The notes beneath the pieces were generated by a model. That model made no database searches, was not told the DNA's origin, and worked only from the letters and a program-made list of their open reading frames with translations. Positions 44,764-62,420 of a stretch of 64,000 bases of DNA are shown one piece after another. Numbering within the stretch: position 1 is the first letter of the stretch; the number at the start of each line of letters is the position of its first letter. A program made the translations under genes and the position numbers. This DNA is from Microbulbifer sediminum (lineage in GTDB: Bacteria; Pseudomonadota; Gammaproteobacteria; Pseudomonadales; Cellvibrionaceae): positions 1 to 64,000 of the forward strand of contig NZ_JAJSAP010000005.1 of NCBI RefSeq assembly GCF_021729035.1, written 5' to 3'.

Positions 44764-45632
44764 GCGCCGAACCTCATTCTCTCTGTGAACTTGATTTGGC
44801 AACACGTCAACGATCAATTAAAAGGAAAACTCCATACCTTTAGGACAGGCCGGTTTATCCAGAAGCAGACTACGGCATTACGACACTTTGGACACACGGC
44901 GGTTTGCCGGGGATTGATGATGACTTGGCGTGTTGTCGCTGTTTTTATTTGAAAAAGTTTTATTATTTTTTAAATTGTTTTTTTACTGACATCACAGCCA
45001 TGGAGAACCGCTGAAATGGCTGGCGAAATGATTCTAGTCACGAAAATGAAACAGTGTAAACAGCAAAAAAGTGACTGTACGTCCCCTGAGAAACAGCGCA
45101 CAAATAGAATAAATACAGACTTACCAGTCCCCGAACAGGCACTGCCAAAGGGGACGCCCGCCACTGCAAAGGTGTGAACGATGGCCAAAACTTCGACCGG
45201 CCAGGCTTCGAAAGATAAACGTAAAAACTCTGGCCGGGCTATTAACAGGGAGGGCTCCCCAGCTTCACCTGTCAGCCGCTCATCTCATCAAGCAGACAAT
45301 CGCCCACTCCATATCCAGCCCCGCCCTGGCGAACATCAACCCACGGCTGGAAAAAGATTATTTCGGCGCCGATTAAAAATTAAGGGCCGCGTAAAAAGGT
45401 GAAGAAAGTGCCCCCCCGGATGTGGACTGATCAATGAAGTGCAGGAAAGATCGCGAGAAAAGCTTGTAAACGGGCCTTACCTCTTGCCGCAATCGCTCGC
45501 GCAGGAAAGTCCGCAGGCGACCGGCCTGACCACCGGCGTGCAGCGTTGCGCGGCTTTCACCAAAGTCTAATCGCCCCCATGGGTCCAATCGCGTAGCATG
45601 GCCCTAAAAGGCACAAGCAAGGGGCCACCCCC
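44764..45632. other. Divergent intergenic region, mostly noncoding
   Basis: About 870 bases between the lipase and the DUF294 gene. The first 240 bases are markedly AT-rich (long T and A runs near 44940-44990) and should hold the lipase promoter. A doubtful 73-codon frame lies at 45181. I see no other element. Confidence 0.45.
45181..45402 (+). CDS. Possible small basic protein
   Basis: A 73-codon frame starting ATG after AAGGTGTGAACG. The product is Lys/Arg-rich and Pro/Ser-rich with a basic end (KRLFRRRLKIKGRVKR), no hydrophobic segment and no recognised family. It may be a chance frame in a noncoding stretch. Confidence 0.25.
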   Translation: MAKTSTGQASKDKRKNSGRAINREGSPASPVSRSSHQADNRPLHIQPRPGEHQPTAGKRLFRRRLKIKGRVKR

Positions 45633-47486
45633 ATGAATGCAGACCCAAAGCTGCCGGAAATACAGTCAGTGGTGTCCTTCCTGCGCCACTGCCCCCCCTT
45701 CGGCGGGCTGCCCAAACCCACGCAGCAGGATACAGCACGCAGGATCCGGATCACTTACCTGCGCAAGGGTGAGCAAATTCGCGCCGACTCGGCCGCCTAC
45801 GCCCTGCGTATTGTGCGCAGCGGGGCGGTGGAAATCCGCAGCGAAGACCGGCAGCTGCTGGACCGGCTCGGCGAGGGCGAGAGCTTCAATATCCACGGGC
45901 TCGACGTGGGATCAGAAGGCGTGGTGGCGGAAACCATCGAGGACACCCTGCTCTACCAGTTGCCCCGCGCCGCCTACGAGGCCCTGCGGGCGCAGTTTCG
46001 CGACTTCGACCGCCACTTCCACAGCCAGCGCAACCGGCGCCTGCGGCGCGCCGCCCGCTATCGCCCGGACACCAACCTGCTGACCCAGCCCCTGGCCAAC
46101 CATGTCACCAGCAACCCGCTGTCACTGCCGCCGGAAACCCCGCTGCAGGCAGCGGCGCGAACCATGACCGAACACCGGGTCTCCTCCCTGCTGGTGAAGG
46201 ACGGTGAGCAGTTGCTGGGCATTGTCACCGACCGCGACCTGCGCAGCCGCGCGCTCGCCAGGGGCCTGCCGGTGCACACCCCGATTCGCGACATCATGAC
46301 TTGCGAACCCAAGCGCATCGAACTGGATGCCAGCGTGTTCGACGCCGTGCTGGCCATGACCCGCGAGGGCATCCACCACCTGCCGGTGCAGCAAGATGGC
46401 AAGGTGGTAGGCATCATCACCTCCTCGGACCTGATGCTGGCGCGTGAGAACGACCCGGTTTACCTGGTCCAGCACCTCTCCCGCCAGCAGGACGTGGAGA
46501 GCCTCGCGGCCATGACCAGCTCATTGCCGTCACTGATGGTGCAGGCGGTACGCGGCGGCATGCGCGCCCACCAGCTGAGCCGCGTACTCACCGCTATCAG
46601 TGATGCGGTTACCTGCCGCCTCATTGAGCTGGCGACCGAGAAACTGGGACCGGCACCGGTGCCCTTCTGCTGGCTGGGCTTCGGCTCCCAGGGGCGCGGT
46701 GAGCAACTGGTCGGCGCCGACCAGGACAACGGCCTGTTGATCGACAACCGCGCCACCGCCAACGACATGGACTGGTTTCGCCGGCTGGCCACCTTTGTCT
46801 GCGACGGCCTGAATGCCTGCGGCTACCCCTACTGCAACGGCAAGGTGATGGCCACCACCGACCGCTGGCGCCAGCCGCTGAGTGAATGGCGCCGCACCGT
46901 GGACAACTGGACCCATGCCCCCACGCCGGAGGCCGTGATGCGTGTGTCGATTTTCTTCGACCTGCGCAGTGTCTACGGTGACGCACACCTGTGCGAGCAG
47001 CTTCAGCGGCATATGCTGTCCCGCGCTCGTCGTGACGCCATTTTCCTGGCGGCCCTGGCCGCCAACGTACTGGAACAGACCCCGCCACTGGGGATATTCC
47101 GGCGCTTCCTGGTAGAGCGCAACGGCGAGCACCGCGACGAGTTCGATATCAAGAAGCGCGGCGTACTACCCATCGTCGACCTGGCCCGTATCCACGCCCT
47201 GGCCCACGGCATACCCGCGGTAAATACGCGCGAGCGGCTGCAACACCTGGTGGACGCGCGCATCCTTACCATCGGGGACGGCCGCAACCTGCAGGACGCC
47301 TATGACACCATCCAGCAGCTACGGGTGGAAAACCAGTGTCGACAGGTTACTGACGGCCACCGCACCAGCAACCACCTGAACCCGGACGAGTTGCCCGGCC
47401 TGGAGCGCAAGCACCTGAAGGATGCCTTTACCGTGGTGCACGACGCCCAGGAAGCCATGCGCAGCCATTTCCGGCAGGGTCTCTGA
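45633..47486 (+). CDS. cNMP-binding/CBS/DUF294 nucleotidyltransferase protein
   Basis: A 617-residue cytoplasmic signalling protein with the order cNMP-binding-like domain (about 20-135), two CBS domains (about 150-275, with VTDRDLRSR and GIITSSDLMLA), DUF294 nucleotidyltransferase-like domain (about 290-430, with GFGSQGRGEQ and ADQDNGLL carrying the Gly-Ser and Asp residues) and DUF294 C-terminal domain (to about 610). The role is unknown; the architecture suggests nucleotide sensing linked to protein or small-molecule modification. Followed after three bases by an exonuclease gene, a pair seen in many Proteobacteria. Confidence 0.87.
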   Translation: MNADPKLPEIQSVVSFLRHCPPFGGLPKPTQQDTARRIRITYLRKGEQIRADSAAYALRIVRSGAVEIRSEDRQLLDRLGEGESFNIHGLDVGSEGVVAETIEDTLLYQLPRAAYEALRAQFRDFDRHFHSQRNRRLRRAARYRPDTNLLTQPLANHVTSNPLSLPPETPLQAAARTMTEHRVSSLLVKDGEQLLGIVTDRDLRSRALARGLPVHTPIRDIMTCEPKRIELDASVFDAVLAMTREGIHHLPVQQDGKVVGIITSSDLMLARENDPVYLVQHLSRQQDVESLAAMTSSLPSLMVQAVRGGMRAHQLSRVLTAISDAVTCRLIELATEKLGPAPVPFCWLGFGSQGRGEQLVGADQDNGLLIDNRATANDMDWFRRLATFVCDGLNACGYPYCNGKVMATTDRWRQPLSEWRRTVDNWTHAPTPEAVMRVSIFFDLRSVYGDAHLCEQLQRHMLSRARRDAIFLAALAANVLEQTPPLGIFRRFLVERNGEHRDEFDIKKRGVLPIVDLARIHALAHGIPAVNTRERLQHLVDARILTIGDGRNLQDAYDTIQQLRVENQCRQVTDGHRTSNHLNPDELPGLERKHLKDAFTVVHDAQEAMRSHFRQGL

Positions 47487-47489
47487 GCC

Positions 47490-48152
47490 GTGGACTGGCC
47501 CGCGCTCCTGTGGCTGGGTTTACAGCGCCGCTGGTGGCGCGGTCGCGCCCGTCACCCCGCCCTGCGGCGGGTACTCTCCCCGCCGGTGCCGACAGGCGAC
47601 GCTATGGATACCCGCTACGTGGCGGTGGACCTGGAGACCACCGGGCTCTCACCGGAAGCGGACGAAATTGCCAGTATCGGCTGGGTAGCCGTCGAACAGG
47701 GTTGCATCCTGCTGGAAACTGCACGCCACTACAGGGTGCGGCTGGAAAAAGGGGTGGGCCAGAGTGCCATCTATCACCAACTGACCGACAGCGAACTGCA
47801 ACAGGGAGAACCACTGTCTACCGTGCTCCCTCGCCTGCTGGAGGCAATCAGTGGCAGCGTGCTGATATTCCACAACGCCCAGTTGGATATGGGTTTTCTC
47901 AACCGCGCCTGCCGGTCATTGTGGGCCGCGCCGCTGCCGGTACCCATTGAAGATACGATGCAGCTGGAATTGCGCCGGCTGCAGCACCGGCAACAGTGCA
48001 TCCCAGCCGGCGCCCTGCGCCTGTTCCAGTGCCGGCATCGCTACGGGTTACCCGATGTGGCCGCGCATGACGCGCTGGGAGATGCGATTGCCACGGCAGA
48101 ACTGTGGCTGGCCATGAAAGCCGGCGAATACCAGAAATGCCCGGCGCAGTAG
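47490..48152 (+). CDS. DEDDh 3'-5' exonuclease (PolC/DnaQ-like)
   Basis: A 220-residue exonuclease-fold protein. Exo I is VAVDLETTGL (Asp, Glu), Exo II is LIFHNAQLDMGFL (Asp), and Exo III is HDALGDAIATAEL (His and Asp), the full DEDDh set. The 38-residue N-terminal extension, rich in Trp and Arg, is common in this subgroup, so I keep GTG 47490; ATG 47604 would give only the catalytic core. Operon partner of the DUF294 gene. Likely acts in DNA or RNA 3' trimming; exact role unknown. Confidence 0.87.
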   Translation: MDWPALLWLGLQRRWWRGRARHPALRRVLSPPVPTGDAMDTRYVAVDLETTGLSPEADEIASIGWVAVEQGCILLETARHYRVRLEKGVGQSAIYHQLTDSELQQGEPLSTVLPRLLEAISGSVLIFHNAQLDMGFLNRACRSLWAAPLPVPIEDTMQLELRRLQHRQQCIPAGALRLFQCRHRYGLPDVAAHDALGDAIATAELWLAMKAGEYQKCPAQ

Positions 48153-48617: not shown

Positions 48618-50300
48618 ATGAAGCAAATCGACCAGCCGCCAGAAATGCTGAGCGGCGGCCAGATCCTGGTCAGGAGCCTGCAGGCGCAGGGTGTTGACCG
48701 TGTTTTCGGCGTTCCCGGCGAGAGCTATCTCGCCGTGCTCGACGCGCTCTGTGATGCTCCGGATATCCAGATGATCACCTGCCGGCAGGAAGGTGGCGCC
48801 GCGATGATGGCGGAGGCCGATGGCCGCCTGGCCGGCAAACCGGGAGTATGCTTCGTCACCCGTGGCCCGGGCGCAACCAATGCGAGCGCCGGGATTCATG
48901 TCGCCTACCAGGCCTCCACCCCGATGGTGCTGTTTATTGGCCAGGTGGCACGTGCCCAGCAGGATCGCGAGGCCTTCCAGGAAATTGACTACCGGCGCAT
49001 GTTCGGTCAGATGGCCAAGTGGGTCGCGCAGGTCGAGTCCCCGGCGCGCCTGGCAGAATACGTTGATCGCGCCTTCGCGGTTGCCATGTCTGGCCGCCCC
49101 GGCCCGGTCGTAATCGCACTGCCCGAAGATATGCTGCGGGAATCCTGCGCGTTTCACCCGAATCAGAAAACTTCCGCCCTGCCGGCAGCGGCCCCGGCCC
49201 CACACGACCTGTCGGCGCTAGAGCGGTTACTTCAACAGAGCGAGCGACCGCTGCTGCTCTGCGGCGAGAGCGGCTGGAGCGATGAAGCGCGCAGGCTGGC
49301 CGAAACTTTTTGCGAAAAACACGCGGTGCCCGCGGTGGCCGCATTTCGCTGCCAGGATCGCTTCGACAACACCCACCCTGCCTATATCGGCGATTGCGGC
49401 CTGGGCATCAACCCCTCACTGCAGCGGCATATTGAAGGCGCAGACCTGGTGCTGGTGATGGGCGCACGGCTGAGTGAAATTGTCACCCAGAATTACACCA
49501 TCCTGGTGGATCCCGGTGCGCAGAAACTGGTACATGTACACCCAAGCCCCGATGAGCTGGTCACCGTGAGACAACCGGATGTCGCCATGGCCTGTGCAAT
49601 CGAACCGCTCGCCGAAGCGCTGGCCGATATTCCCGCCAATCCCGAGCGATTGGAGGGACGCCGCGCAAGGCTGCAAAAGGCGCGCGCGGAATATGAAGCC
49701 TGGTCGACACCCGCGGCCATCCCCGGTGATCTCCAGTACGGGGAAATCGTCGACTACCTGCGCGAGCAGTTACCGGCGGACGCCATTATCTGTAATGGCG
49801 CCGGCAACTATTCCATCTGGGTGCACCGATACTTCCGCTATCGCGCTGACCAGGCACAGCTCGCACCCATCAGCGGTTCGATGGGCTACGGGCTGCCTGC
49901 GGCCATCGCCGCCAAGCTCCGCTATCCCGACCGCGATGTGCTCTGTTTCGCCGGTGACGGCTGCCTGCAAATGACGGTGCAGGAGCTGGCCACCGCAAGA
50001 CAGTACGGCGCCAATATTATCGTCCTGGTCATCAACAACGGCAGCTACGGCACAATCCGCACGCACCAGGAGCGAAATTACCCCGGCCGGGTGATGGCCA
50101 CCGACCTCGTGAACCCGGACTTCACTGCGCTGGCTGCTGCCTATGGGTTTCACAGCACCAAAATCACATGCACGGAAGAATTCTACCCGGCATTCGAGGC
50201 GGCACGGGCGGCCAGCCAGCCTGCCCTGCTGGAACTGTACCTGCCCCTCGAGGCACTGACGCCATCGGTGACACTGTCGCAATTACAAAGCAATAACTGA
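48618..50300 (+). CDS. ThDP-dependent enzyme (acetolactate synthase-like)
   Basis: A 560-residue thiamine diphosphate enzyme in the PDC/ALS superfamily. The Glu that activates ThDP is in CRQEGGAAMMAEADGR (about residue 62), the middle domain follows (about 190-330), and the ThDP motif is GDGCLQMT...VINNGSYG (about 435-470). It is first in the kynurenine operon, 18 bases before the SDR. Its substrate is unknown. It may decarboxylate a 2-oxoacid formed after 2-aminomuconate deamination (4-oxalocrotonate or 2-oxoadipate), replacing the usual vinylpyruvate branch; this is inference. ATG 48618. Confidence 0.85.
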   Translation: MKQIDQPPEMLSGGQILVRSLQAQGVDRVFGVPGESYLAVLDALCDAPDIQMITCRQEGGAAMMAEADGRLAGKPGVCFVTRGPGATNASAGIHVAYQASTPMVLFIGQVARAQQDREAFQEIDYRRMFGQMAKWVAQVESPARLAEYVDRAFAVAMSGRPGPVVIALPEDMLRESCAFHPNQKTSALPAAAPAPHDLSALERLLQQSERPLLLCGESGWSDEARRLAETFCEKHAVPAVAAFRCQDRFDNTHPAYIGDCGLGINPSLQRHIEGADLVLVMGARLSEIVTQNYTILVDPGAQKLVHVHPSPDELVTVRQPDVAMACAIEPLAEALADIPANPERLEGRRARLQKARAEYEAWSTPAAIPGDLQYGEIVDYLREQLPADAIICNGAGNYSIWVHRYFRYRADQAQLAPISGSMGYGLPAAIAAKLRYPDRDVLCFAGDGCLQMTVQELATARQYGANIIVLVINNGSYGTIRTHQERNYPGRVMATDLVNPDFTALAAAYGFHSTKITCTEEFYPAFEAARAASQPALLELYLPLEALTPSVTLSQLQSNN

Positions 50301-50318
50301 AAAAAGAAGCAGAACACT

Positions 50319-51107
50319 ATGAATCTCGATCTCACAGGAAAGCGCGCCCTTGTCTGTGGTTCCAGCCAGGGACTGGGCAAGGCCAGTGCCATCGAGCTCG
50401 CCCAGCTGGGCGCATCGGTAACGCTGTTTTCACGCAACGCAGAAAAGTTGCAGGCGGTCATGCAGGAGCTGGACACCTCAAAGGGCCAGCAGCACCACGT
50501 GCTGGTCGCTGACTTTACGAACCCGCAAGAGGTCCAGTCCGCGATCGGGCAACATATCGCCGAAACCGGCAATTTCGAGATCCTGGTAAACAATACCGGC
50601 GGCCCGCCCCCGGGGGCAGCCAACTCCGCCGATGCCCAGGAATTTATCGATGGATTCAACCTGCACCTGGTGAATAACCACAACCTGGTACAGGCACTGC
50701 TGCCCGGGATGAAAGCAGCCGGCTACGGGCGCGTGATCAACGTCATTTCCACCTCGGTGAAAGCCCCGCTGAATGGCCTCGGCGTTTCCAATACCGTACG
50801 CGGCGCGGTGGCGAACTGGGCCAAGACCCTGGCCAATGAGCTGGGCCAGTTCAACATTACCGTCAATAACGTATTACCCGGCGCAACCAATACGGTCCGG
50901 CTCGAGGCGATTATCACCAACAAGGCGAAAAAGGCCGGTGTCAGTGAGGCGGACATGGCCGAGAAAGAGAAGTCCACCATTCCCATGGGCCGCTTCGGGG
51001 AAGCGCACGAATTCGGCGCAGCCGTCGCCTTCCTGGCGTCGCCGGCGGCAGGCTATATCAATGGCGTCAACCTCCCGGTCGACGGGGGCAGGACCGGGTG
51101 CCTGTAA
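50319..51107 (+). CDS. SDR-family protein without YxxxK
   Basis: A 262-residue short-chain dehydrogenase-fold protein. The nucleotide-binding motif is GSSQGLGKA, and NNTGG replaces the common NNAGG. The active-site Ser is in NVISTSVKAP, but the expected Tyr-x-x-x-Lys is SNTVR, so both Tyr and Lys are changed. A C-terminal INGVNLPVDGG is normal. It may still reduce a substrate by a different mechanism or do non-redox chemistry. The stop overlaps the next start (TAATG), so it is translated with the ALDH. Role in kynurenine breakdown inferred from position only. Confidence 0.87.
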   Translation: MNLDLTGKRALVCGSSQGLGKASAIELAQLGASVTLFSRNAEKLQAVMQELDTSKGQQHHVLVADFTNPQEVQSAIGQHIAETGNFEILVNNTGGPPPGAANSADAQEFIDGFNLHLVNNHNLVQALLPGMKAAGYGRVINVISTSVKAPLNGLGVSNTVRGAVANWAKTLANELGQFNITVNNVLPGATNTVRLEAIITNKAKKAGVSEADMAEKEKSTIPMGRFGEAHEFGAAVAFLASPAAGYINGVNLPVDGGRTGCL

Positions 51108-52549
51108 TGGAAACCCTGGAAAATTACATCGATGGCAAGCTGGTACCTCCCGGAGACGGCCGCTACCTGGACAATATCAATCCCGCTACCGGGCAGGTGT
51201 ATGGCCGGATTCCACGTTCTGGCCAGGCAGACCTGGACGCCGCGGTAACGGCCGCGGAAAAGGCCCGGGCCGGCTGGCAGGCCACCCCAGCCGAACAGCG
51301 CGCCGCACTGATGGAGCGCATCGCGGGCCTGATCGACACAAACCTGGAACTGCTCGCCACTGCAGAGTCCGAGGACAATGGCAAGCCCATCGCCCTGGCC
51401 CGCTCCCTGGATATACCCCGCGCGGCCAGTAACTTCCGCTTTTTCGCCCACGCGATTACCCAGTTTGCGTCGGAGTCGCACGCCATGGGGGAAGCTGCGA
51501 TCAATTACACCTTGCGTGACCCCATCGGAGTCGTCGGCTGTATCTCGCCGTGGAACCTGCCGCTGTACCTCTTTACATGGAAGATCGCCCCGGCGCTGGC
51601 CGCCGGCAACTGTGTGGTTGCCAAACCGTCGGAAGTTACCCCGAAGACCGCGTACCTGTTATCCCAGCTGTGCATCGAGGCGGGGCTCCCGTCGGGTGTA
51701 CTGAATATCCTGCACGGCCTGGGTGGCGAGATCGGCAATGCCATTGTCACCCACGCCGGCGTCAAGGCCATTTCCTTTACCGGCGGTACTGAAACCGGCG
51801 CGCAAATCGCGGCGCAGGCCGCCCCAAGGTTCAAGAAACTGTCACTGGAGCTGGGCGGCAAGAACCCGAGCCTGGTATTTGCAGACTGCGACCTGGACAA
51901 AGCCGTGGCCGGTGTTGCGCGTGCCGCCTTCGCCAACCAGGGCCAGATCTGCCTGTGCGGCTCCCGCATCTACGTGGAACGCAGCATCTACCCCGAGTTC
52001 CGGCAGCGCCTGCTGGACCAGGTAAAAGCTTTGCGCGTCGGCGACCCCCTGACCGACGTCCAACAGGGTGCCCTGGTATCGGAAGCGCATATGGGTAAAG
52101 TGCTCGGCGCCATCGAGACAGCCCGTGCAGAGGGAGGGAAGATCCTCTGCGGGGGTGAGCGGATTGTGCCGGACGGGCGCTGCGCCCAGGGCTATTTTGT
52201 CGCGCCCACGCTGATCGAGGGGCTGCCGCTGGCATGCGAGACCAACCAACGGGAAATATTCGGGCCGGTGGCAACGCTGCAACCCTTTGATACCGAAGAA
52301 GAGGCGATCCAGATGGCCAACGGCACCGACTATGGACTCGCCGCATCGCTCTGGACCGAAAACCTGCGCCGCAGCCACCGCATCGCCAGGCAACTGGACT
52401 TCGGCATCGTCTGGGTCAATTGCTGGTTACAGCGCGACCTCCGCACACCATTCGGCGGCATGAAGAATTCGGGTGTAGGTCGCGAGGGCGGGCTGGAGGC
52501 GCTGCGGTTCTTCACCGAGCCGAAGAACGTCTGTATCAACTACGAGTAA
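51107..52549 (+). CDS. nbaE: 2-Aminomuconate semialdehyde dehydrogenase-like ALDH
   Basis: A 480-residue NAD-dependent aldehyde dehydrogenase. Motifs: PWNLPLYLF, FTGGTETGAQ, LELGGKNPSLVF (general-base Glu) and NQGQICLCGSR (catalytic Cys). The sequence is close to the aminomuconate/hydroxymuconate semialdehyde dehydrogenase group. Its neighbours are the aminomuconate deaminase and the ACMS decarboxylase, so the oxidation of 2-aminomuconate 6-semialdehyde is the likely reaction. Start ATG 51107 overlaps the SDR stop. Confidence 0.87.
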   Translation: METLENYIDGKLVPPGDGRYLDNINPATGQVYGRIPRSGQADLDAAVTAAEKARAGWQATPAEQRAALMERIAGLIDTNLELLATAESEDNGKPIALARSLDIPRAASNFRFFAHAITQFASESHAMGEAAINYTLRDPIGVVGCISPWNLPLYLFTWKIAPALAAGNCVVAKPSEVTPKTAYLLSQLCIEAGLPSGVLNILHGLGGEIGNAIVTHAGVKAISFTGGTETGAQIAAQAAPRFKKLSLELGGKNPSLVFADCDLDKAVAGVARAAFANQGQICLCGSRIYVERSIYPEFRQRLLDQVKALRVGDPLTDVQQGALVSEAHMGKVLGAIETARAEGGKILCGGERIVPDGRCAQGYFVAPTLIEGLPLACETNQREIFGPVATLQPFDTEEEAIQMANGTDYGLAASLWTENLRRSHRIARQLDFGIVWVNCWLQRDLRTPFGGMKNSGVGREGGLEALRFFTEPKNVCINYE

Positions 52550-52572
52550 ACAGAAGCAAAACCGAGAACATC

Positions 52573-52989
52573 ATGAGCGCAGTGAAACACTCCTCCAGGG
52601 CCCCGGCTCCTGTCGGGCTCTATCCACACGCACGCAAGGTCGGTAACCTGCTGTTCCTGTCCGGTGTGGGGCCACGCAAGAAAGACAGTAAAGAAATCCC
52701 CGGCGTGACGCTGGACGATAACGGCAACATCGTCGCCTATGATATTGCCGAACAATGCCACTCGGTGTTCTCCAATGTCCGCGCAATCCTCGAGGACGCC
52801 GGATCCGGCTGGGACCGGCTCGTGGACGTCACCGTGTTCCTGACCAATATGAAAGACGACTTCAAAACCTATAACAAAATCTATGCGGAATACTTCAGGG
52901 ATAACCAGCCTTGCAGAACCACGGTCGAGGTTCTCTCCCTGCCAACCCCGATTGGCATCGAGCTAAAGTGTATCGCCACGGTCGATTAG
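52573..52989 (+). CDS. nbaF: 2-Aminomuconate deaminase (RidA family)
   Basis: A 138-residue RidA/YjgF-fold protein. The conserved Arg is in PCRTTVEV and the C-terminal Glu region is IELKCIA. It contains a longer N-terminal loop (GPRKKDSKEIPG) found in AmnD/NbaF-type deaminases, which convert 2-aminomuconate to 4-oxalocrotonate and ammonia. Placement between the ALDH and the dioxygenase fits that step. ATG 52573. Confidence 0.85.
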   Translation: MSAVKHSSRAPAPVGLYPHARKVGNLLFLSGVGPRKKDSKEIPGVTLDDNGNIVAYDIAEQCHSVFSNVRAILEDAGSGWDRLVDVTVFLTNMKDDFKTYNKIYAEYFRDNQPCRTTVEVLSLPTPIGIELKCIATVD

Positions 52990-53052
52990 GCTTCCTGGAG
53001 TTCAGCCAACCCTATACCCGTCCCTAAACAACATATTGTGAGGCATATAATA

Positions 53053-53574
53053 ATGAAAAGCATGATGCCGCCGGTCAACTTCAAACAGTGGATCGAAGAC
53101 CACCGCCAATACCTGAAGCCGCCAGTGTGTAACAAACTGGTATTCGAGGAGAACGGTTTTTTCATCATGGTGGTCGGCGGACCCAATTCACGCAAGGATT
53201 ACCACGTGGATGAGGGACCGGAGTTCTTCTACCAGGTCGAGGGCGATATGCTGCTCAAGACCGTGCAGGACGGCAAGGTTGTGGATGTGCCGATCAGGGA
53301 GGGAGAGATCTTCCTGCTGCCACCGAAGATTCCCCACTCACCACAGCGCTTTGAGAATACCGTTGGACTCGTCATAGAGCGCACCCGCCTGCCGGAGGAG
53401 AAGGATGGCCTGCAGTGGTACTGCGACAAGTGCGACCACCTCCTCTACGAGGAGTATTTCCAGCTGAAGAATATCGAGGAGGACTTCCCCCCCGTGTTCG
53501 ACCGCTTCTTCTCTTCCGAACAGAACAGGACATGCGACGCTTGCGGCCATGTCATGGAAGTACCGGGGGCGTGA
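53053..53574 (+). CDS. nbaC: 3-Hydroxyanthranilate 3,4-dioxygenase
   Basis: A 173-residue bacterial-type dioxygenase that opens the 3-hydroxyanthranilate ring to 2-amino-3-carboxymuconate semialdehyde (ACMS). The cupin iron ligands are visible in [13 protein letters not shown] (His, Glu) and PHSPQRF (His). The C-terminus has a rubredoxin-like iron site of two pairs, CDKC and CDAC, characteristic of bacterial enzymes. ATG 53053 follows GTGAGG. Its stop overlaps the start of the decarboxylase (TGATG). Confidence 0.95.
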
Positions 53575-54590
53575 TGCTGACCATTGATATCCACACCCAT
53601 ATCCTGCCCAAAGACTGGCCCAACCTGAAAGAGCGCTATGGTTACGGTGGCTTTATCCACCTGGACCATCACAAGTGCGGCTGCGCCCGCATGATGAAGG
53701 AAGACACCTTCTTCCGCGAGGTGGAGAGCAACTGCTGGGATGCAGGTGTACGCATGCAGGAGTGCGATACTCACGGCGTGCATGTGCAGGTACTCTCCAC
53801 AGTTCCGGTGATGTTCAGTTACTGGGCCAAGCCGGAGGATACACTCGACCTGTCCCGTATGCTGAATGACCATATTGCAGGTGTTGTGGCCGAACACCCG
53901 GGACGTTTCATCGGCCTCGGCACCGTACCCATGCAGGCGCCGGACCTCGCCGTCCAGGAGCTGGAGCGTTGCGTCAGGGAACTCGGCATGGCTGGCATCC
54001 AGATTGGCTCCAATGTGAACAGCTGGAACCTGGATGCGCCTGAACTCTACCCGGTGTGGGAAGCAGCGCAGGAACTCGGGGCGTCGGTCTTCGTGCATCC
54101 CTGGGAAATGATGGGACGCGAGAAAATGCCCCGCTACTGGCTGCCCTGGCTGGTCGGCATGCCGGCGGAGACCTCGCGGGCGATCTGCTCGATGATTTTC
54201 GGTGGCATCTTCGAGAAATACCCCCGTCTCAAGGTGGCGTTTGCCCATGGTGGCGGCTCCTTCCCCTCCACCATCGGCCGCATCGAGCACGGGTTCAATG
54301 TTCGCCCGGATCTCTGTGCCGTCGACAACCCGGTCAATCCCCGCAACTACCTGGACCGGATCTATTTCGACTCGCTCGTGCACGACCCGTCGATGATGAA
54401 CTACCTGCTGGAGCTCGTCGGGCCGGACCGCATTGCCATGGGCAGCGATTACCCCTTCCCACTGGGCGAACTGGAGCCCGGCTCCCTGATTCGCTCAATG
54501 GGATACAGCGAAGACGTGCAGGCCAAGTTGTTACACGGCACGGCTCTCGAATGGCTGGGACTGGAGAAATCCCACTTTATGGAGGAGTGA
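53574..54590 (+). CDS. nbaD: ACMS decarboxylase
   Basis: A 338-residue amidohydrolase-fold decarboxylase that removes CO2 from ACMS to give 2-aminomuconate 6-semialdehyde. Metal ligands: DIHTHILP (two His), a mid-chain His in VFVHPWEMMG, a further His in FAHGGG, and the Asp in GSDYPFPLG. Length matches bacterial ACMSD. Start overlaps the dioxygenase stop. Confidence 0.94.
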   Translation: MLTIDIHTHILPKDWPNLKERYGYGGFIHLDHHKCGCARMMKEDTFFREVESNCWDAGVRMQECDTHGVHVQVLSTVPVMFSYWAKPEDTLDLSRMLNDHIAGVVAEHPGRFIGLGTVPMQAPDLAVQELERCVRELGMAGIQIGSNVNSWNLDAPELYPVWEAAQELGASVFVHPWEMMGREKMPRYWLPWLVGMPAETSRAICSMIFGGIFEKYPRLKVAFAHGGGSFPSTIGRIEHGFNVRPDLCAVDNPVNPRNYLDRIYFDSLVHDPSMMNYLLELVGPDRIAMGSDYPFPLGELEPGSLIRSMGYSEDVQAKLLHGTALEWLGLEKSHFMEE

Positions 54591-54592
54591 CC

Positions 54593-55423
54593 ATGGCTAC
54601 CTATATCGAACTGGGGACTGTGCGGTACCGACTGTGCCACGAACGGGCCACCAGTATTGCCATCCCGCTCAACTTCTCGGGACCACAACCGAACCACTTT
54701 GGCGTACCCACCGCAACCACGACAACGGTGGAGGGTGGCGGCTTCGTCGGCGACACCTCTCGCGGGGGCAGCTGCAACGTGCGGACGCTGCAACTGACAC
54801 CGCACTGCAATGGCACCCATACGGAATCCATCTCCCATATCGTCGACGACGAAGTGGCGGTGGGTGAACTGCCGCTACCGATCCTGCAAAACTGCCTGCT
54901 GCTGTCGGTGCAGCCCGTGCAGCTGGCAGAAAGCGAGGAAAGTTACTGGCCCAACCCGGAGGCGGCCGACAGTATCGTAACAAAAGGCGCGTTACTGGCG
55001 GCACTGCATAACGCCGGCTTCCCCGGCCCGCCCGGCGATTGCCCGGCGCTGGTAATCCGTACGCAGCCAAACAGTCCCGAGAAATGCGCGCTCGAATACG
55101 GGGAGGACTGCCCCCCGGTATTCCTGAGCCTGGAAGCCATGGAGTGGATCAGTGAGCATTTCGATCACCTGCTGGTGGATTTCCCCAGCGTCGACAAGAT
55201 GTATGACGAGGGCCAGCTGGCGAATCACCGCCAGTTCTGGCATGTGCCCCGCGGAATCACCAGGATGGATGAGACTGCCCACACAATGCGAACCATTACT
55301 GAAATGGTCTTTGTGCCCGACTTCCTGAAGGACGGCTACTACGGCCTGAACCTGCAGGTACCGGCGTTCCGCACCGATGCTGCCCCCAGCCGGCCAATCC
55401 TCATACCGCTGGAAGAAGAATAA
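54593..55423 (+). CDS. Cyclase-family protein, kynurenine formamidase-like
   Basis: A 276-residue cyclase/kynurenine formamidase family protein. The zinc motif is HCNGTHTESISHI, a variant of HxGTHxDxPxH. Downstream are RTQPNSPEKC and VFLSLEAMEW, seen in bacterial cyclases. In this operon it probably hydrolyses N-formylkynurenine. It is longer than KynB (about 210 residues), so it may belong to a distinct subgroup. ATG 54593, two bases after the decarboxylase stop, with GGAGG upstream. Confidence 0.82.
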   Translation: MATYIELGTVRYRLCHERATSIAIPLNFSGPQPNHFGVPTATTTTVEGGGFVGDTSRGGSCNVRTLQLTPHCNGTHTESISHIVDDEVAVGELPLPILQNCLLLSVQPVQLAESEESYWPNPEAADSIVTKGALLAALHNAGFPGPPGDCPALVIRTQPNSPEKCALEYGEDCPPVFLSLEAMEWISEHFDHLLVDFPSVDKMYDEGQLANHRQFWHVPRGITRMDETAHTMRTITEMVFVPDFLKDGYYGLNLQVPAFRTDAAPSRPILIPLEEE

Positions 55424-55436
55424 AAGAGGCTTACCC

Positions 55437-56717
55437 ATGCACTATCAAACGGGTTTGGAATTCGCGCAGCAGATGGACTGCGACGACCCGCTGGCAAGAT
55501 TCCGCGAGCAGTTCTCGATTCCGCACACCTGCCACGGCACCGAGGAGATATACCTGTGCGGCAACTCCCTGGGCCTGCAGCCAAAGCTGGCGCGCGAGTA
55601 TGTTGTGCAGGAGCTGGACAAGTGGGCAAGCCTGGGCGTCAAGGGGCACTTCGACTGTGAATACCCGTGGATGCCCTACCACGAGTTCCTGGCAGAGACC
55701 GCCGCGGACCTGGTGGGCGCAAACACCGACGAAGTCGTGATGATGAATTCCCTCACGGTCAACCTGCACCTGATGATGGTGACTTTCTACCGGCCCAGTG
55801 AAACACGCTACAAGATCGTGATCGAGGACCATGCGTTTCCTTCCGACCACTACGCGGTAGAGAGCCAGTTGCGCCACCACGGTATCGACCCCGACGACGG
55901 CCTGGTGCTGCTGAAGCCGCGGGAAAACGAGGACCTCTTGCGCGAGGAGGATATCGAGGCGCTGATTGAGGAACAGGGAGATTCCATCGCACTGATACTG
56001 CTGCCCGGCGTACAGTATTACACCGGACAGGTACTGGATTTCGCGGCCATTACCCGCGCCGCGCAGGCGCGGGGCATCAAGGTGGGCTTTGACCTCGCCC
56101 ACGCGGTCGGCAACATCCCGCTTAAACTGCATGAATGGAATGTGGACTTTGCCTGCTGGTGTACCTACAAATACCTGAACTCCGGCCCCGGCTCCGTGGC
56201 CGGCTGCTTCGTCCACCGCCGCCACGCGCGGGATACCGGCCTGGACCGTTTTGCTGGCTGGTGGGGCCATGACAAGGACACACGGTTCAGGATGGAGAAT
56301 CGCTTTGTCCCGATGCCCACCGCCGAGGGCTGGCAGCTTTCCAACCCCCCTATCCTGTCGCTGGCGGCGATCCGCGCCTCTTTCGATGTGTTCAGGCAGG
56401 CCGGCGGCATGCAGCCCCTGCGCAAGAAATCGGAGAAACTCACCGGTTACCTGCGCTACCTGCTGGAAGCTGAAGTCTCCGAGTTTATCCGGGTGATCAC
56501 CCCGGAGAGCCCCGACGAATGCGGCTGCCAATTGTCACTATGCTGTGACGCCAGGCACCTGAGTGGCCGCGAGCTGTTCGGGCGCCTGGAGGCGGCAGGC
56601 ATCACTGCCGACTGGCGGGAGCCGAATGTAATCCGTATCGCCCCCGTTCCCCTCTACAACAGCTTTACGGACGTCTACAACTTTGTGCAAATCCTGAAGT
56701 CCGCCTGCAACGAGTGA
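55437..56717 (+). CDS. kynU: Kynureninase
   Basis: A 426-residue PLP-dependent hydrolase that cleaves 3-hydroxykynurenine (or kynurenine) to 3-hydroxyanthranilate and alanine. Family marks: IYLCGNSLGLQP near the start, the PLP region GFDLAHAVGN, and the PLP lysine in CWCTYKYLNSGPG. FAGWWGHD completes the active site. ATG 55437 follows AGAGG. Stop overlaps the monooxygenase start. Confidence 0.96.
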   Translation: MHYQTGLEFAQQMDCDDPLARFREQFSIPHTCHGTEEIYLCGNSLGLQPKLAREYVVQELDKWASLGVKGHFDCEYPWMPYHEFLAETAADLVGANTDEVVMMNSLTVNLHLMMVTFYRPSETRYKIVIEDHAFPSDHYAVESQLRHHGIDPDDGLVLLKPRENEDLLREEDIEALIEEQGDSIALILLPGVQYYTGQVLDFAAITRAAQARGIKVGFDLAHAVGNIPLKLHEWNVDFACWCTYKYLNSGPGSVAGCFVHRRHARDTGLDRFAGWWGHDKDTRFRMENRFVPMPTAEGWQLSNPPILSLAAIRASFDVFRQAGGMQPLRKKSEKLTGYLRYLLEAEVSEFIRVITPESPDECGCQLSLCCDARHLSGRELFGRLEAAGITADWREPNVIRIAPVPLYNSFTDVYNFVQILKSACNE

Positions 56718-58096
56718 TGGGTATGAGCAAAAACAGCAAGGAAAAAATCGTCATCGCAGGCGCCGGCCTGGTGGGCGCCATGGCCGCCTGCTTCCTGGGA
56801 CGCCGCGGCTTCGATGTGGACGTCTATGAAAGCCGGGTAGACCTGCGCCGGCACGATATCTCTGCCGGCCGTTCCATCAACCTGGCGCTGGCCAACCGGG
56901 GTATCTACCCGCTGGAACAACTGGGCCTGATGGGCAAGGTACGGGAAATGATGATCCCGATGCGCGGCCGCATGATCCACGACCTCAAGGGCGAGCAGAA
57001 CTTCCAGCCCTACGGGCAGAGCGAAGACGAAGTGATCTACTCGATTTCCCGGGGGGATCTGAACCGCCTGCTGCTGGACGCGGCGGAGGAAACCGGGCAT
57101 GTAAGGATTCATTTCTCACACCGGCTGGATTCGGTTGACTTCGACAGCAACAGCGCTGTGTTCATCGATGACGAAACCAGCTCCCCTGTCGATGTAAGCT
57201 TCTCGAGGTTGATCGGTGCGGATGGTGCGGGTTCAAGGGTTCGTCAGGCCCTGGTGGCGGCGCAGGATGGCAGCGACAGCCTGGAGCCACTGGACCACAG
57301 CTACAAGGAACTGGAGATCCCCGCAGGAACTGATGGTGGCTTCCAGATCGAAAAGCACGCGCTGCACATCTGGCCGCGGGGCGGCTTCATGCTGATCGCC
57401 CTGCCGAACCTGGACGGCAGCTTCACGGTGACCCTGTTCCTGCCAAATAAAGGCAAAGCGAGTTTTGCGGCGCTGCAGACGCGAGAGGCGGTATCGCAGT
57501 TTTTCGAGGAGTACTTCCCGGGTGTGGATGCGCTGATACCGGGACTGGTGGAAGACTTCTTTGCCAATCCCACCGGCAAGCTGGGTACCGTGCGCTGCAA
57601 CCCCTGGCATATCGCCGACAGGGCGATCCTGGTCGGGGACGCCGCCCATGCCATAGTGCCCTTCCACGGCCAGGGCATGAACTGCGGCTTCGAGGACTGC
57701 GTGGTGCTGGATCAGTGTATCGAGCAGTACGCCCCGGATTGGCACCAGGTATTTATCGAGTACGATCACCTGCGGGCGCCGAACGGCGAGGCGATTGCGG
57801 ACATGGCCCTGGAGAACTATGTGGAGATGCGCGATTCGGTAAACGATCCCCAGTTCCTGCTCAAGAAGGCCATCGGCTTCGAACTGCAGAAGCGCTGGCC
57901 GGACCTCTTTACCCCGCGCTATGGCATGGTCATGTTCCAGCGCATCCCCTACGCCGAGGCCCAGCGCCGCGGGGAGATCAACCAGCAGATCCTGGACAGG
58001 CTGGCCTCTGGCATAGAGTCAGTGGAGGATGTCGACTGGGGCCTGGCCGAAACACTGGTCAAAAAACACCTCGGCTCGACCGCCTTGACTGCCTGA
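56717..58096 (+). CDS. kmo: Kynurenine 3-monooxygenase
   Basis: A 459-residue FAD hydroxylase turning kynurenine into 3-hydroxykynurenine. The Rossmann motif is IAGAGLVGAMAA, GRSINLALA matches the family, the second FAD motif is VGDAAHAIVPFHGQGMN, and the C-terminal half carries PRYGMVMFQRIPY. An eukaryotic-type membrane anchor is absent. Translation starts at ATG 56717 or a close ATG at 56723. Last gene of the operon. Confidence 0.95.
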   Translation: MGMSKNSKEKIVIAGAGLVGAMAACFLGRRGFDVDVYESRVDLRRHDISAGRSINLALANRGIYPLEQLGLMGKVREMMIPMRGRMIHDLKGEQNFQPYGQSEDEVIYSISRGDLNRLLLDAAEETGHVRIHFSHRLDSVDFDSNSAVFIDDETSSPVDVSFSRLIGADGAGSRVRQALVAAQDGSDSLEPLDHSYKELEIPAGTDGGFQIEKHALHIWPRGGFMLIALPNLDGSFTVTLFLPNKGKASFAALQTREAVSQFFEEYFPGVDALIPGLVEDFFANPTGKLGTVRCNPWHIADRAILVGDAAHAIVPFHGQGMNCGFEDCVVLDQCIEQYAPDWHQVFIEYDHLRAPNGEAIADMALENYVEMRDSVNDPQFLLKKAIGFELQKRWPDLFTPRYGMVMFQRIPYAEAQRRGEINQQILDRLASGIESVEDVDWGLAETLVKKHLGSTALTA

Positions 58097-58369: not shown

Positions 58370-61300
58370 TTAGGCAGAGGTAAACCAGCCCCTACGGAAC
58401 AGGGAGAGCAGCAACAACAGCAATATCGGCACCCCTATGCTCCCCCCTCCCCCACCGCTATCACTTTTGGCATCGGCCGGGCTTACCGTCACAATGCTGC
58501 TGTCTGCAGATGACTCTCCGCCGTCACTGGCGCCAGGCCCGCCCAAGTCAGCCTCGTCGGAAGACTCCCGATCATCCCCTGCTGAGCCAGTCCCCTGCTC
58601 CACACCCTCGGTATCTAGCTCAGCCTGTGTGATTGTGGCCGGGCGCCACTTCCCGTCAATACCATTACCCACCAGCTGCCCGGGCGCAAGGTCACCAGCA
58701 TAAAAGTGTAGGGGGCGCCCGGTAAGTAACACCTGGTGGCGGCCGTCCGGCAGCTCCTCGAGGCTGATATCGGCGAATTCTTTAGCTGCTTCAATCTCCT
58801 CACGGGAGTTCACAGTAAGTGGTGGCCAGAAGGCCGCACAATGAGCCACGTTAATGCCACTACAGCTATACCCCTGGTACTCAAGATCGACCAGGTACAA
58901 TGCATGCTGGGGGCGACTTGATGATCGGCCGCCCACCAGGCGGCGCCCGAGTTGCGGGTCGTCCAGAACCTTCAGGGGAAAACCAAAGCAGGCGTCCCCC
59001 TTGCCATTGCCGTCGACATCGCGCTGCATGACATTCGCCCTCAGAGGACAGTTATCAGCGTCATTCACCACTCCATCCCGGTCCAGGTCGTCATCGGCCA
59101 GCGCAGTGTTGAAGGTTCTCAGGGAGGACACGTGGATATGCTCACTGACCGGAAGGTGATTCCCTTGGTAGCCCCAGAAGTCAGCCCATACCGCAAAAGC
59201 CGCTGTGTCGGCGCCGGGTAATCTGACCTGCTCCAGTTTCTCGATTTCCGAAGCGGGGATGGGGAGCTCTACCACAAATTCACGTCGCCCTTCAGGTACC
59301 TGTGTCTGAATCACCGCCTTCGAGAAGTTTAAGTCCAAGACCGGCTGGTTACCGACCCAGGCTGTCATATGATCGAAAACCGTCGCATAGGTTTCCGGCA
59401 GTTTGACTCGAGCTGTCATACGCAGGTAGCCATCGTCCCCAACTAGCAAATGCCCCCCCTGGTGGACGTCGAGCAATTCCACATCCGGGAAATTCAGGTC
59501 GAAAACATCCCGACTGGCGGTGGGCAGTGCGGGAAGCTCGAATTCATAGAAACCATAATTCGCCCGACCCGCATTGTCATTGAAGAACAACACCACCTTT
59601 GCCGGACGCGGTTCAGGCTTCTGGAAATTGAGCAGGTTGACTTCGTGAAAAATAATACCGGTACCCCCGGTCGCCTTGGGCGGGCGTGAATAGATGCTGC
59701 GCTTTTTTCCAAGCACACTCGCCCCCAGGTGTGCAATCACCTGCGCCTTGCCTTCAAAGTCCCAGCCGTCGATGCCAATTTCACCATAATCATCCAGGAC
59801 CCGCACTGCGCCAAAAGAAGAAAAGAGCAAATGGCCCGGCACGAGGTTACTCAGCGGAATCAAGCTGATTTTGTCCTCGCTAATTATTAACCTAGGCAAC
59901 TGCGTATCACTATTCGGCGCAGGATTGCTGTTACTGGTCACCAGCCGAAATACCCCAACATCGAAATCCGTTGTCAGGTAATTTCCAGGGACATTCATGG
60001 GGTGTACATGGACGCTCAGCAGATTCTCTCCATCGAAAAAATCTGCGGTATCCAGGGTAAAGGTTGTCTGCCACATCTCTTGATCGACGAAATGGTTGTG
60101 GCCATCTGCTTCCAGCGTCCTGAAATTTTTATAAAATTGTACATGTTGACCTGTCTTACCATAAACAGTAATCCTGCCCGTTACCTCTCCCGACACAACT
60201 TGTCCGGGGTTCACGGGAGCACCGGTGATATCAAATACCTCGATGACAATCGCGGGGTTGAAGACGGACACCGCAAAAGTGAGTTCAGCCGAGCGCCCGC
60301 CGACATGTGCGCGCACCGTTAAGCGTTCCTCACCGGGAAAACCGGCAGCCTGCAGCTGTAATTCATTCCCGACCACGCTGGCAGCCAAGACATTGCTCCT
60401 GTTTTCCCTCTCGATTACATAGCCAAGCGATTCATCCGGATGGGAAAATACCCGGCCGAGATCGATCCGGACCAGGCCGTCTTGTTCGATACGCTGATCC
60501 GGAATTCCGTTTATCACCTTTGGCGCCGCCCCTGGGCCATTACGCCCGTAGGCCACGCGGTAGGCGGATAGAGTATCCCCTACCGCAAACAGTACCCCGT
60601 CCGCCAGGGCAATGGCGGGCCCGGCATTCGCCAGACGGAATCGCTCTTCCAAAGAGAAACGGTCCAGGGCGAGCACTCCTGCATAGGTCGGTAGAAACAG
60701 AGAGTCATCAGTGAGAATGGGCTGGGTATGATCGAAAACGCCCCACTCAGGGGCTAGCTCGGCAAGAACAGTGCCATCAACTTCACTGATCACGCTCAGC
60801 ATACGATCATGGGTGACATAAAGAAGGCCATCCGCCACTGCCAGCGAGTCGGGCCTTACCAGCTCAATAGACCAGTGGACGTCAAGACTGTCCTGGTCGA
60901 TAGCCATCAGGGATGCGGCACCAAGTACGTACAGCCGACCATCACTCGTATAGATATCATTGGCAAGACTATCATTTAATATCGAAGGACGATTCAGCTC
61001 CAGCGTGCGCATTAAGGCGGTCGTGGTACTGCCATACTCATCGAGCCTGTCATCACGACCGACATATACCTTGCCCCGATGTACCGTCGGTGCCAACTTA
61101 AAAGCAGTAGCGTCTGTAGGGAAGGAAAAACGCTGGTTACCACTCACAGCGTCATAACCATAAAAACTCTGCCCGGGCCTGGCCTGTACCCAGACAGTAT
61201 CTTCGGCCACTACTGGAGGTGGCAGATCACCAAAATCATCCTGGTTATAAGCCTGATAGGTCGCCTGCCAAGTTAATTCACCACTTGCGACATCAACGGC

Positions 61301-62047: not shown

Positions 62048-62420
62048 GATTTGGGCTCTGGCTCTTATGTCTTTGGGCAGTTGCCTTAAGGGAATTCGCA
62101 AATGCCTTGTGGGACTGCTCCGCCATAGTATTAGTTATTTGACTGTACGGGGTGTATCCGACGTTTACTCTGGTGACAAGTTACCGGGTCCCGAAAGTCA
62201 CGGCTGTTACGCCGAACCACACAGGGTCTCTTAGCCAGCATGGGCGGAGACAGGGGCTAGGGAAAGGACTTACTGGCAACCTGCACTATTATTACGATTG
62301 ATATCGCTTCTCATTTGCCTTAAGATTGCCGCAACAATGACAGGAACGGTCGTGCCCTATTCAGCCGACCTTTCCGCAACGCGTAATAGCCCGACCTTAC
62401 GACGCATCAAGGAACCGAAA
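62048..62420. other. Divergent promoter region with Fur-like site
   Basis: About 370 bases between the surface-protein gene and the TonB receptor gene. It holds the Fur-box-like site at 62297-62315. No ORF of note. Confidence 0.5.
62297..62315. promoter_or_regulatory. Fur-box-like site
   Basis: On the minus strand AATGAGAAGCGATATCAAT matches the Vibrio/Pseudomonas-type consensus AATGA-AA-ATT-TCATT at about 15 of 19 positions, with a perfect left half AATGAGAA. It lies about 106 bases upstream of the TonB receptor start. Confidence 0.5.

Follow-up and report, generated by a model that had tools for sequence, protein, structure and literature searches.

A tryptophan-degradation operon of Microbulbifer sediminum with a candidate reductive exit to 2-oxoadipate

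Introduction

In the nba/amn-type bacterial 3-hydroxyanthranilate pathway, 3-hydroxyanthranilate 3,4-dioxygenase (3-HAO), ACMSD, an aldehyde dehydrogenase (ALDH) of the 2-aminomuconate 6-semialdehyde dehydrogenase (AMSDH) type, and a Rid-family protein are encoded in one operon, and a decarboxylase, a hydratase, an aldolase, and an acylating dehydrogenase form the lower branch that handles 4-oxalocrotonate. Here we analyse a kynurenine operon in a 64,000-nucleotide stretch of Microbulbifer sediminum DNA (contig NZ_JAJSAP010000005.1, positions 1 to 64,000 of the forward strand; hereafter, the window). The operon has the same four upper proteins in one transcriptional direction. It differs from the nba/amn type in carrying a short-chain dehydrogenase/reductase (SDR), here together with a thiamine diphosphate (ThDP)-dependent enzyme, instead of the four lower-branch enzymes, and in having an ALDH, a RidA-family protein, and an ACMSD that belong to a different clade.

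The other described system of relevance is the mammalian, and proposed fungal, route from 2-aminomuconate through 2-oxoadipate to glutaryl-CoA. For fungi, PMC7842363 gives formation of 2-oxoadipate by reduction of 2-oxo-3-hexenedioate as one option, and it counts an SDR among the genes syntenic with an Aspergillus cluster; the accessible part of PMC13151070 takes 2-aminomuconate onward to glutaryl-CoA, with no reductase named there, and that of PMC10143591 likewise states a route to glutaryl-CoA and leaves the reductase unnamed. The operon analysed here would resemble this route in its reductive exit to 2-oxoadipate, and would differ from it in that a candidate reductase is encoded in a bacterial operon and that a candidate non-oxidative ThDP decarboxylase acts instead of, or beside, the dehydrogenase complex. 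To our knowledge, no gene has been assigned to the reduction that pathway schemes draw from 2-aminomuconate, or from its deaminated product, to 2-oxoadipate. Among the matches listed in the open-licence literature, we found no description of an SDR or a ThDP enzyme in a bacterial kynurenine operon.

The architecture of the operon is real and recurrent, and is a variant of a known pathway. Comparison across loci suggests that tryptophan would exit via 2-oxoadipate and not via pyruvate and acetaldehyde. We hold with moderate confidence that the operon represents a second architecture for tryptophan degradation. An SDR-based reductive exit combined with ThDP-dependent decarboxylation is, in our judgement, the best explanation of the locus as a whole, with about even odds of being right.

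Results

Gene content and layout of the operon

The operon occupies positions 48618-58096 of the window and comprises nine genes on the + strand, with spacings of -10 to +63 bases:

48618..50300, + strand: ThDP-dependent enzyme of the PRK08199 subfamily, 560 aa, proposed 2-oxoadipate decarboxylase (NCBIfam 802.8 bits, cut-off 539; three TPP domains)
50319..51107, + strand: SDR (262 aa), a candidate 4-oxalocrotonate/2-aminomuconate double-bond reductase that would use NADPH and yield 2-oxoadipate (PF13561/PF00106)
51107..52549, + strand: ALDH of the AMSDH type (best PDB matches are AMSDH)
52573..52989, + strand: RidA-family protein, proposed 2-aminomuconate deaminase (PF01042 99.7 bits; TIGR00004 100.2 bits, just below the cut-off of 106.25)
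53053..53574, + strand: 3-HAO (NF009763 263.5 bits, cut-off 220; PF06052)
53574..54590, + strand: amidohydrolase/ACMSD (PF04909 166.9 bits; position; His-Thr-His near the N-terminus; 0 NCBIfam matches)
54593..55423, + strand: cyclase-family protein, proposed kynurenine formamidase (PF04199 38.9 bits; context; 0 NCBIfam matches)
55437..56717, + strand: kynureninase (TIGR01814 484.8 bits, cut-off 246.4)
56723..58096, + strand: kynurenine 3-monooxygenase (KMO)-like FAD hydroxylase (PF01494; adjoins kynureninase in survey loci)

An earlier reading made from the letters of the window (the sequence-only reading) had placed the ThDP enzyme and the SDR inside the operon, and they are its first two genes. 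It had also credited all nine genes with the span from N-formylkynurenine to 4-oxalocrotonate; the span is covered, by seven genes, the other two being the ThDP enzyme and the SDR. In particular, the operon contains 3-HAO, ACMSD, an AMSDH-type ALDH, and a Rid-type deaminase, with ACMSD and RidA assigned by Pfam match and context alone. The top NCBIfam match of the KMO-like hydroxylase is VioC, at 184.4 bits and below the cut-off of 760 for that family.

The SDR stop codon overlaps the ALDH start codon (TAATG), and a possible alternative ALDH start, GTG at 51098, lies upstream. The ALDH scores 564 bits against TIGR03216, below the cut-off of 693, and the solved structures most similar to it are those of 2-aminomuconate 6-semialdehyde dehydrogenases (E 2e-137). 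The accessible part of PMC4286809 describes two arginines that are conserved only in the AMSDH/HMSDH branch of the ALDH family. The ALDH segments NFR 112-114 and RDLR 446-449 (numbered from GTG 51098) align with AMSDH 4u3w, and, in our own reading, their arginines are candidate counterparts of Arg120 and Arg464 in that paper.

Five other genomes have the nine genes in this order (loci L050, L088, L135, L136, and L139; G and L numbers designate survey genomes and loci), and chance clustering is therefore ruled out, the same nine genes being present in six genomes. The closest named genome found is that of Microbulbifer yueqingensis, with a ThDP enzyme 94% identical and an SDR 98% identical to those of the window. 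Read from 3' to 5', the gene order roughly follows the pathway order; the ThDP enzyme and the SDR thus sit where the final steps would be.

A gene resembling tryptophan 2,3-dioxygenase (TDO) lies on another contig (C7:476938-477711, L195; PF03301; 288.7 bits, below the cut-off of 390.7; E 6e-86), and the pathway can therefore plausibly begin at tryptophan. Similar scores in G470, G480, G392, and also G486, a Microbulbifer genome with a lower-branch cluster, mark a divergent TDO type.

Absence of the usual lower branch

None of the decarboxylase, hydratase, aldolase, and acylating dehydrogenase of the 4-oxalocrotonate branch was found at the locus, the scope within which the acylating dehydrogenase was sought. 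The whole genome (3.85 Mb, 15 contigs, completeness rated 100%) gave weak matches only to TIGR03217, the 4-hydroxy-2-oxovalerate aldolase family (best 68 bits, cut-off 286), and 0 matches at E 0.001 to TIGR03218, a 4-oxalocrotonate decarboxylase family whose model detects hydratases as well. As a control, both families were matched in all seven lower-branch genomes examined for both; TIGR03218 matches in lower-branch genomes mostly lie below the curated cut-off, which is exceeded in 2 of 18 genomes. The sequence-only reading was right that the typical branch is missing, at the locus for all four enzymes and genome-wide for the aldolase and decarboxylase/hydratase families. A lower branch elsewhere in the genome is ruled out by the same searches, the aldolase being far below its cut-off and the decarboxylase family unmatched.

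Two architectures among 3-HAO loci

A 3-HAO over the cut-off is present in 16 of 369 genomes of a class sample, 10 of 120 of a family sample, and 26 of 398 of a phylum sample (the samples overlap). We examined 46 loci besides the window, including two named Microbulbifer loci and counting the two 3-HAO places of G412 as one stretch. Many of these loci hold 3-HAO, kynureninase, and KMO only, or 3-HAO alone. An ALDH with at least 45% identity is present at 22 loci, every one of which also has RidA, and these revealed two major arrangements: loci with the SDR beside the ALDH and without a lower branch (10 of 22: L035, L044, L050, L088, L135, L136, L139, L149, L156, L158) and loci with lower-branch genes and without the SDR (8 of 22: L132, L133, L134, L137, L138, L140, L150, L157). 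No locus has both, and four have neither in view (L039, which is near a contig end, L041, L045, and L147). The mutual exclusivity of the SDR and the lower branch over the 22 loci has a Fisher p of 0.0017, without correction for kinship.

Among the loci with neither, the genome of L041 (G072) has an aldolase about 12 kb further along, and the genome of L147 (G786) has the SDR at another place. No ACMSD was seen at L158. At L132 and L137 the only lower-branch genes at the locus are of the decarboxylase/hydratase type, and both genomes have aldolases elsewhere. The lower branch of L133 was checked and consists of two FAA-hydrolase-fold proteins, an HMGL/DmpG aldolase, and an acetaldehyde dehydrogenase. 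The ALDH, RidA, and ACMSD of the window are 56-97% identical to proteins of SDR clusters, versus 37-48% to proteins of lower-branch clusters.

G786 (L147, L176) is a natural hybrid: its upper cluster is of the classic type, with an ALDH 46% identical to that of the window, no lower branch at the locus, and no aldolase over the cut-off in the genome, and its SDR, 69% identical, stands alone at the other place (L176). This hybrid supports the SDR as a functional substitute for the lower branch.

Across the phylum sample, SDR orthologues with at least 53% identity occur in 8 of 398 genomes, that of the window included, and the next best match is at 43% or less; the 53% line was set after this gap was seen, and up to six candidates per genome were scored. 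All eight fall among the 26 genomes with 3-HAO over the cut-off (hypergeometric 1e-10; 2e-9 without the window's own genome). Of the 24 genomes of the genus in the family sample, three have the SDR, and the same three, and no others, have the operon. In nine lower-branch genomes (the eight with the branch at the locus plus G072) the SDR search gave 0 matches at E 1e-40; scoring covered 62 of 120 and 62 of 165 candidates in two genomes of the lower-branch and genus searches, and an orthologue may have been missed there as well as in the six-candidate phylum search. The aldolase is over its cut-off in all nine of these lower-branch genomes, which is nearly true by definition and serves as a positive control, and in 1 of 15 SDR genomes (G470). 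In four genomes the SDR lies off the 3-HAO locus yet beside an ALDH of the same clade (L178, L179, L192, L193). Distances between SDRs correlate with those between ALDH, RidA, 3-HAO, kynureninase, and KMO proteins (Pearson 0.88, 0.74, 0.73, 0.94, and 0.91, respectively), a pattern that shared descent alone would also give. A plasmid search for the SDR gave a best identity of 42.6% among the matches listed (12 of 76 records).

Sequence and likely chemistry of the SDR

Alignment with two canonical SDRs reveals that the operon-encoded SDR lacks the YxxxK motif and has Ser157 and Arg161 at the Tyr and Lys places. Both residues are invariant in 14 aligned orthologues. Arg39 sits after the second strand, a position that we take to favour NADPH as cofactor. 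The closest solved structures by profile search are three uncharacterised Burkholderia SDRs (5va8, 5idx, and 5vps), AerF (E 1.6e-58), 1o5i, 2z1n, and BacG/YwfH (E 3.9e-48). Ranked by fold, Burkholderia proteins and AerF take the first ten places, FabG ketoreductases begin at rank 11, and BacG is at rank 19. The model has a pLDDT of 84.8, with values below 50 across most of residues 146-155, the catalytic loop.

In the literature, AerF (aeruginosin) and BacG/YwfH (bacilysin) act on unsaturated 2-oxo acids. The two resemble the SDR in fold and profile, and in the profile alignment AerF has a Ser at the Tyr position and no Lys at the Lys position; unlike the SDR, they belong to peptide antibiotic and protease-inhibitor biosynthesis and not to tryptophan breakdown. 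Each acts on a 2-oxo acid that carries a conjugated C=C, and the reaction is a hydride addition. Loss of the Tyr in the SDR fits such chemistry, because hydride addition to a conjugated C=C yields a stabilised enolate, for which a proton-donating Tyr is unneeded. Judged by family and context, this C=C chemistry is what conversion of 2-oxohex-3-enedioate to 2-oxoadipate would need. The SDR is the best candidate for the reductase that would convert 4-oxalocrotonate, or 2-aminomuconate, to 2-oxoadipate, and we think it likely, short of confident, that it is a C=C reductase with 2-oxoadipate as product. As a predicted step, the reduction is well supported by comparison: the SDR/lower-branch exclusivity, the co-occurrence with 3-HAO, and the likeness to AerF and BacG all argue for the reductive exit to 2-oxoadipate that the sequence-only reading had proposed.

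The ThDP enzyme

The ThDP enzyme matches PRK08199 over the cut-off along its full length, a likeness that assigns no function, as the name of the model carries none. Its motifs include Glu58 and GDG(446)...NN(473). The model (pLDDT 84.8) has acetolactate synthases as its nearest solved folds; membership of that family is ruled out by the score against TIGR00118 (339.6 bits, cut-off 538.35). The AruI-type 5-guanidino-2-oxopentanoate decarboxylase is a ThDP-dependent 2-oxo-acid decarboxylase that is followed by an aldehyde dehydrogenase. The proposed route would share this decarboxylase-then-aldehyde-dehydrogenase logic; the window protein itself lies below the cut-off of the AruI-type family and is not a member (PRK07524, 265.6 bits, cut-off 500).

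In this survey the ThDP gene is part of the operon only in Microbulbifer and one relative. At five SDR loci (L035, L044, L149, L156, L158) no ThDP match was found at E 0.001, a result that applies to the loci only, the rest of those genomes having not been searched, and L044 extends only about 1 kb past the SDR. Six loci with the SDR off the 3-HAO locus likewise gave no ThDP match at E 0.001. The sequence-only reading had set the ThDP enzyme and the SDR as a pair in place of the lower branch. One half of that claim survives the co-occurrence survey, in that the SDR stands in for the lower branch and the two are exclusive; the pairing with the ThDP enzyme does not. The pair as a single unit is ruled out by the five SDR loci that lack a ThDP match.

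The six operon-linked ThDP proteins form one clade (SH-aLRT 100 in a quick tree with long branches nearby) amid mostly alphaproteobacterial enzymes; the gene was therefore probably recruited into an existing SDR-type operon, as a local addition. Among the best 80 of 578 named loci with ThDP homologues, only two Microbulbifer loci have kynurenine genes within the fetched flanks, and an ALDH of one type directly follows the ThDP gene at 7 of the 80. The ALDH scored from these seven is that of Acinetobacter, where the homologue lies directly before it; this ALDH is over the succinate-semialdehyde dehydrogenase (SSADH) cut-off (707 versus 646 bits), and the cluster also contains an aspartate-transaminase-like protein. 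An SSADH-type neighbour suggests that a dicarboxylic 2-oxo acid is decarboxylated to a semialdehyde, which would match conversion of 2-oxoadipate to glutarate semialdehyde. The case for 2-oxoadipate as substrate is moderate; it draws on the approximately reverse-pathway gene order and the semialdehyde-dehydrogenase neighbour, and fits other 2-oxo acids too. We give the putative assignment of the enzyme as a 2-oxoadipate decarboxylase an even chance of being right.

A recurrent Pseudomonas/Acinetobacter cluster (L065 2075-10246; L106, L119, L121, L122, L123, L126) has a PRK08199-type ThDP enzyme and an SSADH-type ALDH together with a caprolactamase-beta-like protein (below the cut-off), an aspartate-transaminase-like protein, and an unassigned protein of 400 residues; the proteins of L065 were scored, and the six other loci were assigned by similarity. 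The cluster looks like a catabolic route via a 2-oxo acid.

Glutarate and glutaryl-CoA

The genome encodes a glutaryl-CoA dehydrogenase (C8:435942-437135), whose top matches among solved enzymes bear the same name (E < 1e-180). The neighbouring genes examined encode efflux, glycine-transporter-family, and hydrolase proteins, and none is a CoA-transferase. Of 25 genomes examined, with and without the operon, 23 have a match to glutaryl-CoA dehydrogenase, and the enzyme was accordingly rejected as a discriminating marker; identity is only 51-54% for the matches in G288, G040, and G750. SDR genomes have a match in 9 of 10 examined, two of them at only 52-54% identity. Glutarate as end product is barely supported.

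Discussion

The findings can be joined in a route for which we infer the substrates and products of the SDR and the ThDP enzyme. The upper seven enzymes would take N-formylkynurenine through 3-hydroxyanthranilate and 2-aminomuconate to 4-oxalocrotonate (2-oxohex-3-enedioate). The SDR would then transfer hydride from NADPH onto the C=C conjugated with the 2-oxo acid, yielding 2-oxoadipate and replacing the exit by decarboxylase, hydratase, aldolase, and acylating dehydrogenase. In Microbulbifer, where the ThDP gene has been added in front, the ThDP enzyme would convert 2-oxoadipate to glutarate semialdehyde by non-oxidative decarboxylation, and an aldehyde dehydrogenase would oxidise the semialdehyde to glutarate. 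In SDR clusters without the ThDP gene, 2-oxoadipate would proceed to glutaryl-CoA via a 2-oxo-acid dehydrogenase complex. The route as the sequence-only reading drew it is plausible overall. In its full form, a bacterial ending with a Tyr-Lys-less SDR as dedicated reductase and a Microbulbifer ThDP decarboxylase that lets tryptophan carbon out as glutarate, we put it forward tentatively, at slightly less than even chances.

Several observations weigh against this interpretation. On the side of distribution, G040 (L045) has a closely related SDR-type ALDH/RidA/3-HAO/ACMSD/formamidase/kynureninase/KMO cluster with neither SDR nor aldolase, and its 99% complete genome has no SDR, no lower-branch aldolase, and no decarboxylase match; no SDR was seen in G028, whose assembly is fragmented and 93% complete; G470 has an aldolase and a decarboxylase-family protein elsewhere in its genome; the SDR is alone and unlinked in G786 and G863 (L176, L177); the ThDP gene is missing from the five SDR loci named above; and, when the phylum sample is restricted to its 26 genomes with 3-HAO, the aldolase is present in 0 of 8 with the SDR versus 5 of 18 without, a difference that is not significant (p 0.28). 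On the side of chemistry, the SDR is only about 30-34% identical to AerF and BacG, 1o5i (named a 3-oxoacyl-ACP reductase, and also SxxxR) outranks BacG by profile, FabG ketoreductases lie above BacG by fold, and the nearest solved relatives, 5va8, 5idx, and 5vps, carry no stated reaction. Glutaryl-CoA dehydrogenase, finally, is also present in the seven Microbulbifer genomes without 3-HAO that were examined, and is as common without the operon.

As a first alternative, the SDR might make 2-oxoadipate that always exits via a 2-oxoglutarate-type dehydrogenase complex to glutaryl-CoA, with the ThDP enzyme doing other work, either acyloin/acetolactate-type ligation or overflow decarboxylation of several 2-oxo acids. 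Such an exit would account for the five SDR clusters without a ThDP gene, for the acetolactate synthase folds nearest to the ThDP model, and for the glutaryl-CoA dehydrogenase matches in nine of ten SDR genomes, with no CoA-transferase beside that gene to activate free glutarate. But the ThDP enzyme scores far below the acetolactate synthase cut-off, its gene is the first of nine in six genomes, and a homologue adjoins a semialdehyde dehydrogenase; we rate the constant exit to glutaryl-CoA, and equally the other work that it leaves to the ThDP enzyme, as rather unlikely. The same operon content would also fit a ThDP enzyme that decarboxylates 4-oxalocrotonate directly to 4-carboxybut-2-enal, which the ALDH would oxidise to glutaconate, with the SDR acting on a carbonyl or a C=C either earlier or later in the route. 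This we consider highly improbable, since five loci retain the SDR but have no ThDP gene, and the SDR would therefore have its own substrate from the shared upper pathway.

In the remaining alternative, the SDR would be an ordinary ketone reductase or an accessory enzyme, for example one that detoxifies a reactive semialdehyde, and enzymes elsewhere that escape recognition would deal with 4-oxalocrotonate. In its favour are the catalytic diversity of SDRs, the nearness of FabG-type ketoreductases by fold, the SxxxR of 1o5i, which is named a ketoacyl reductase, and G040, which has this type of ALDH without SDR or aldolase. Against it stand the absence of YxxxK in all 14 aligned orthologues and the mutual exclusivity of the SDR and the lower branch in the survey, and we regard an ordinary or accessory role as improbable.

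If the preferred reading, a reductive exit through the SDR, is correct, the SDR would be the first gene candidate for the reductase of this step, and 2-oxoadipate would be made as it is in animals. The SDR is short, conserved, and operon-encoded, and its phylogenetic profile is clear; it opens the step to direct testing in bacteria and offers a seed with which to search for others. A non-oxidative ThDP-dependent 2-oxoadipate decarboxylase, if that assignment is true, would be an added activity useful for glutarate chemistry. For genome modelling, 3-hydroxyanthranilate clusters are not safely assumed to end in pyruvate and acetyl-CoA.

Neighbouring genes

Directly upstream of the operon, at positions 45633-48152 (+ strand) of the window, a CBS/DUF294 nucleotidyltransferase with a weak cNMP-binding match is followed by a DnaQ-type exonuclease, a pair apparently without relation to the operon. 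Convergent to the operon, positions 58370-62101 (- strand) encode a large protein with PQQ-like repeats, a bacterial Ig domain, a TSP3 repeat, and a C-terminal hydrophobic stretch. The protein encoded at positions 42217-44817 (- strand) looks secreted and combines several ricin-type beta-trefoil lectin repeats with a C-terminal domain that resembles a lipase.

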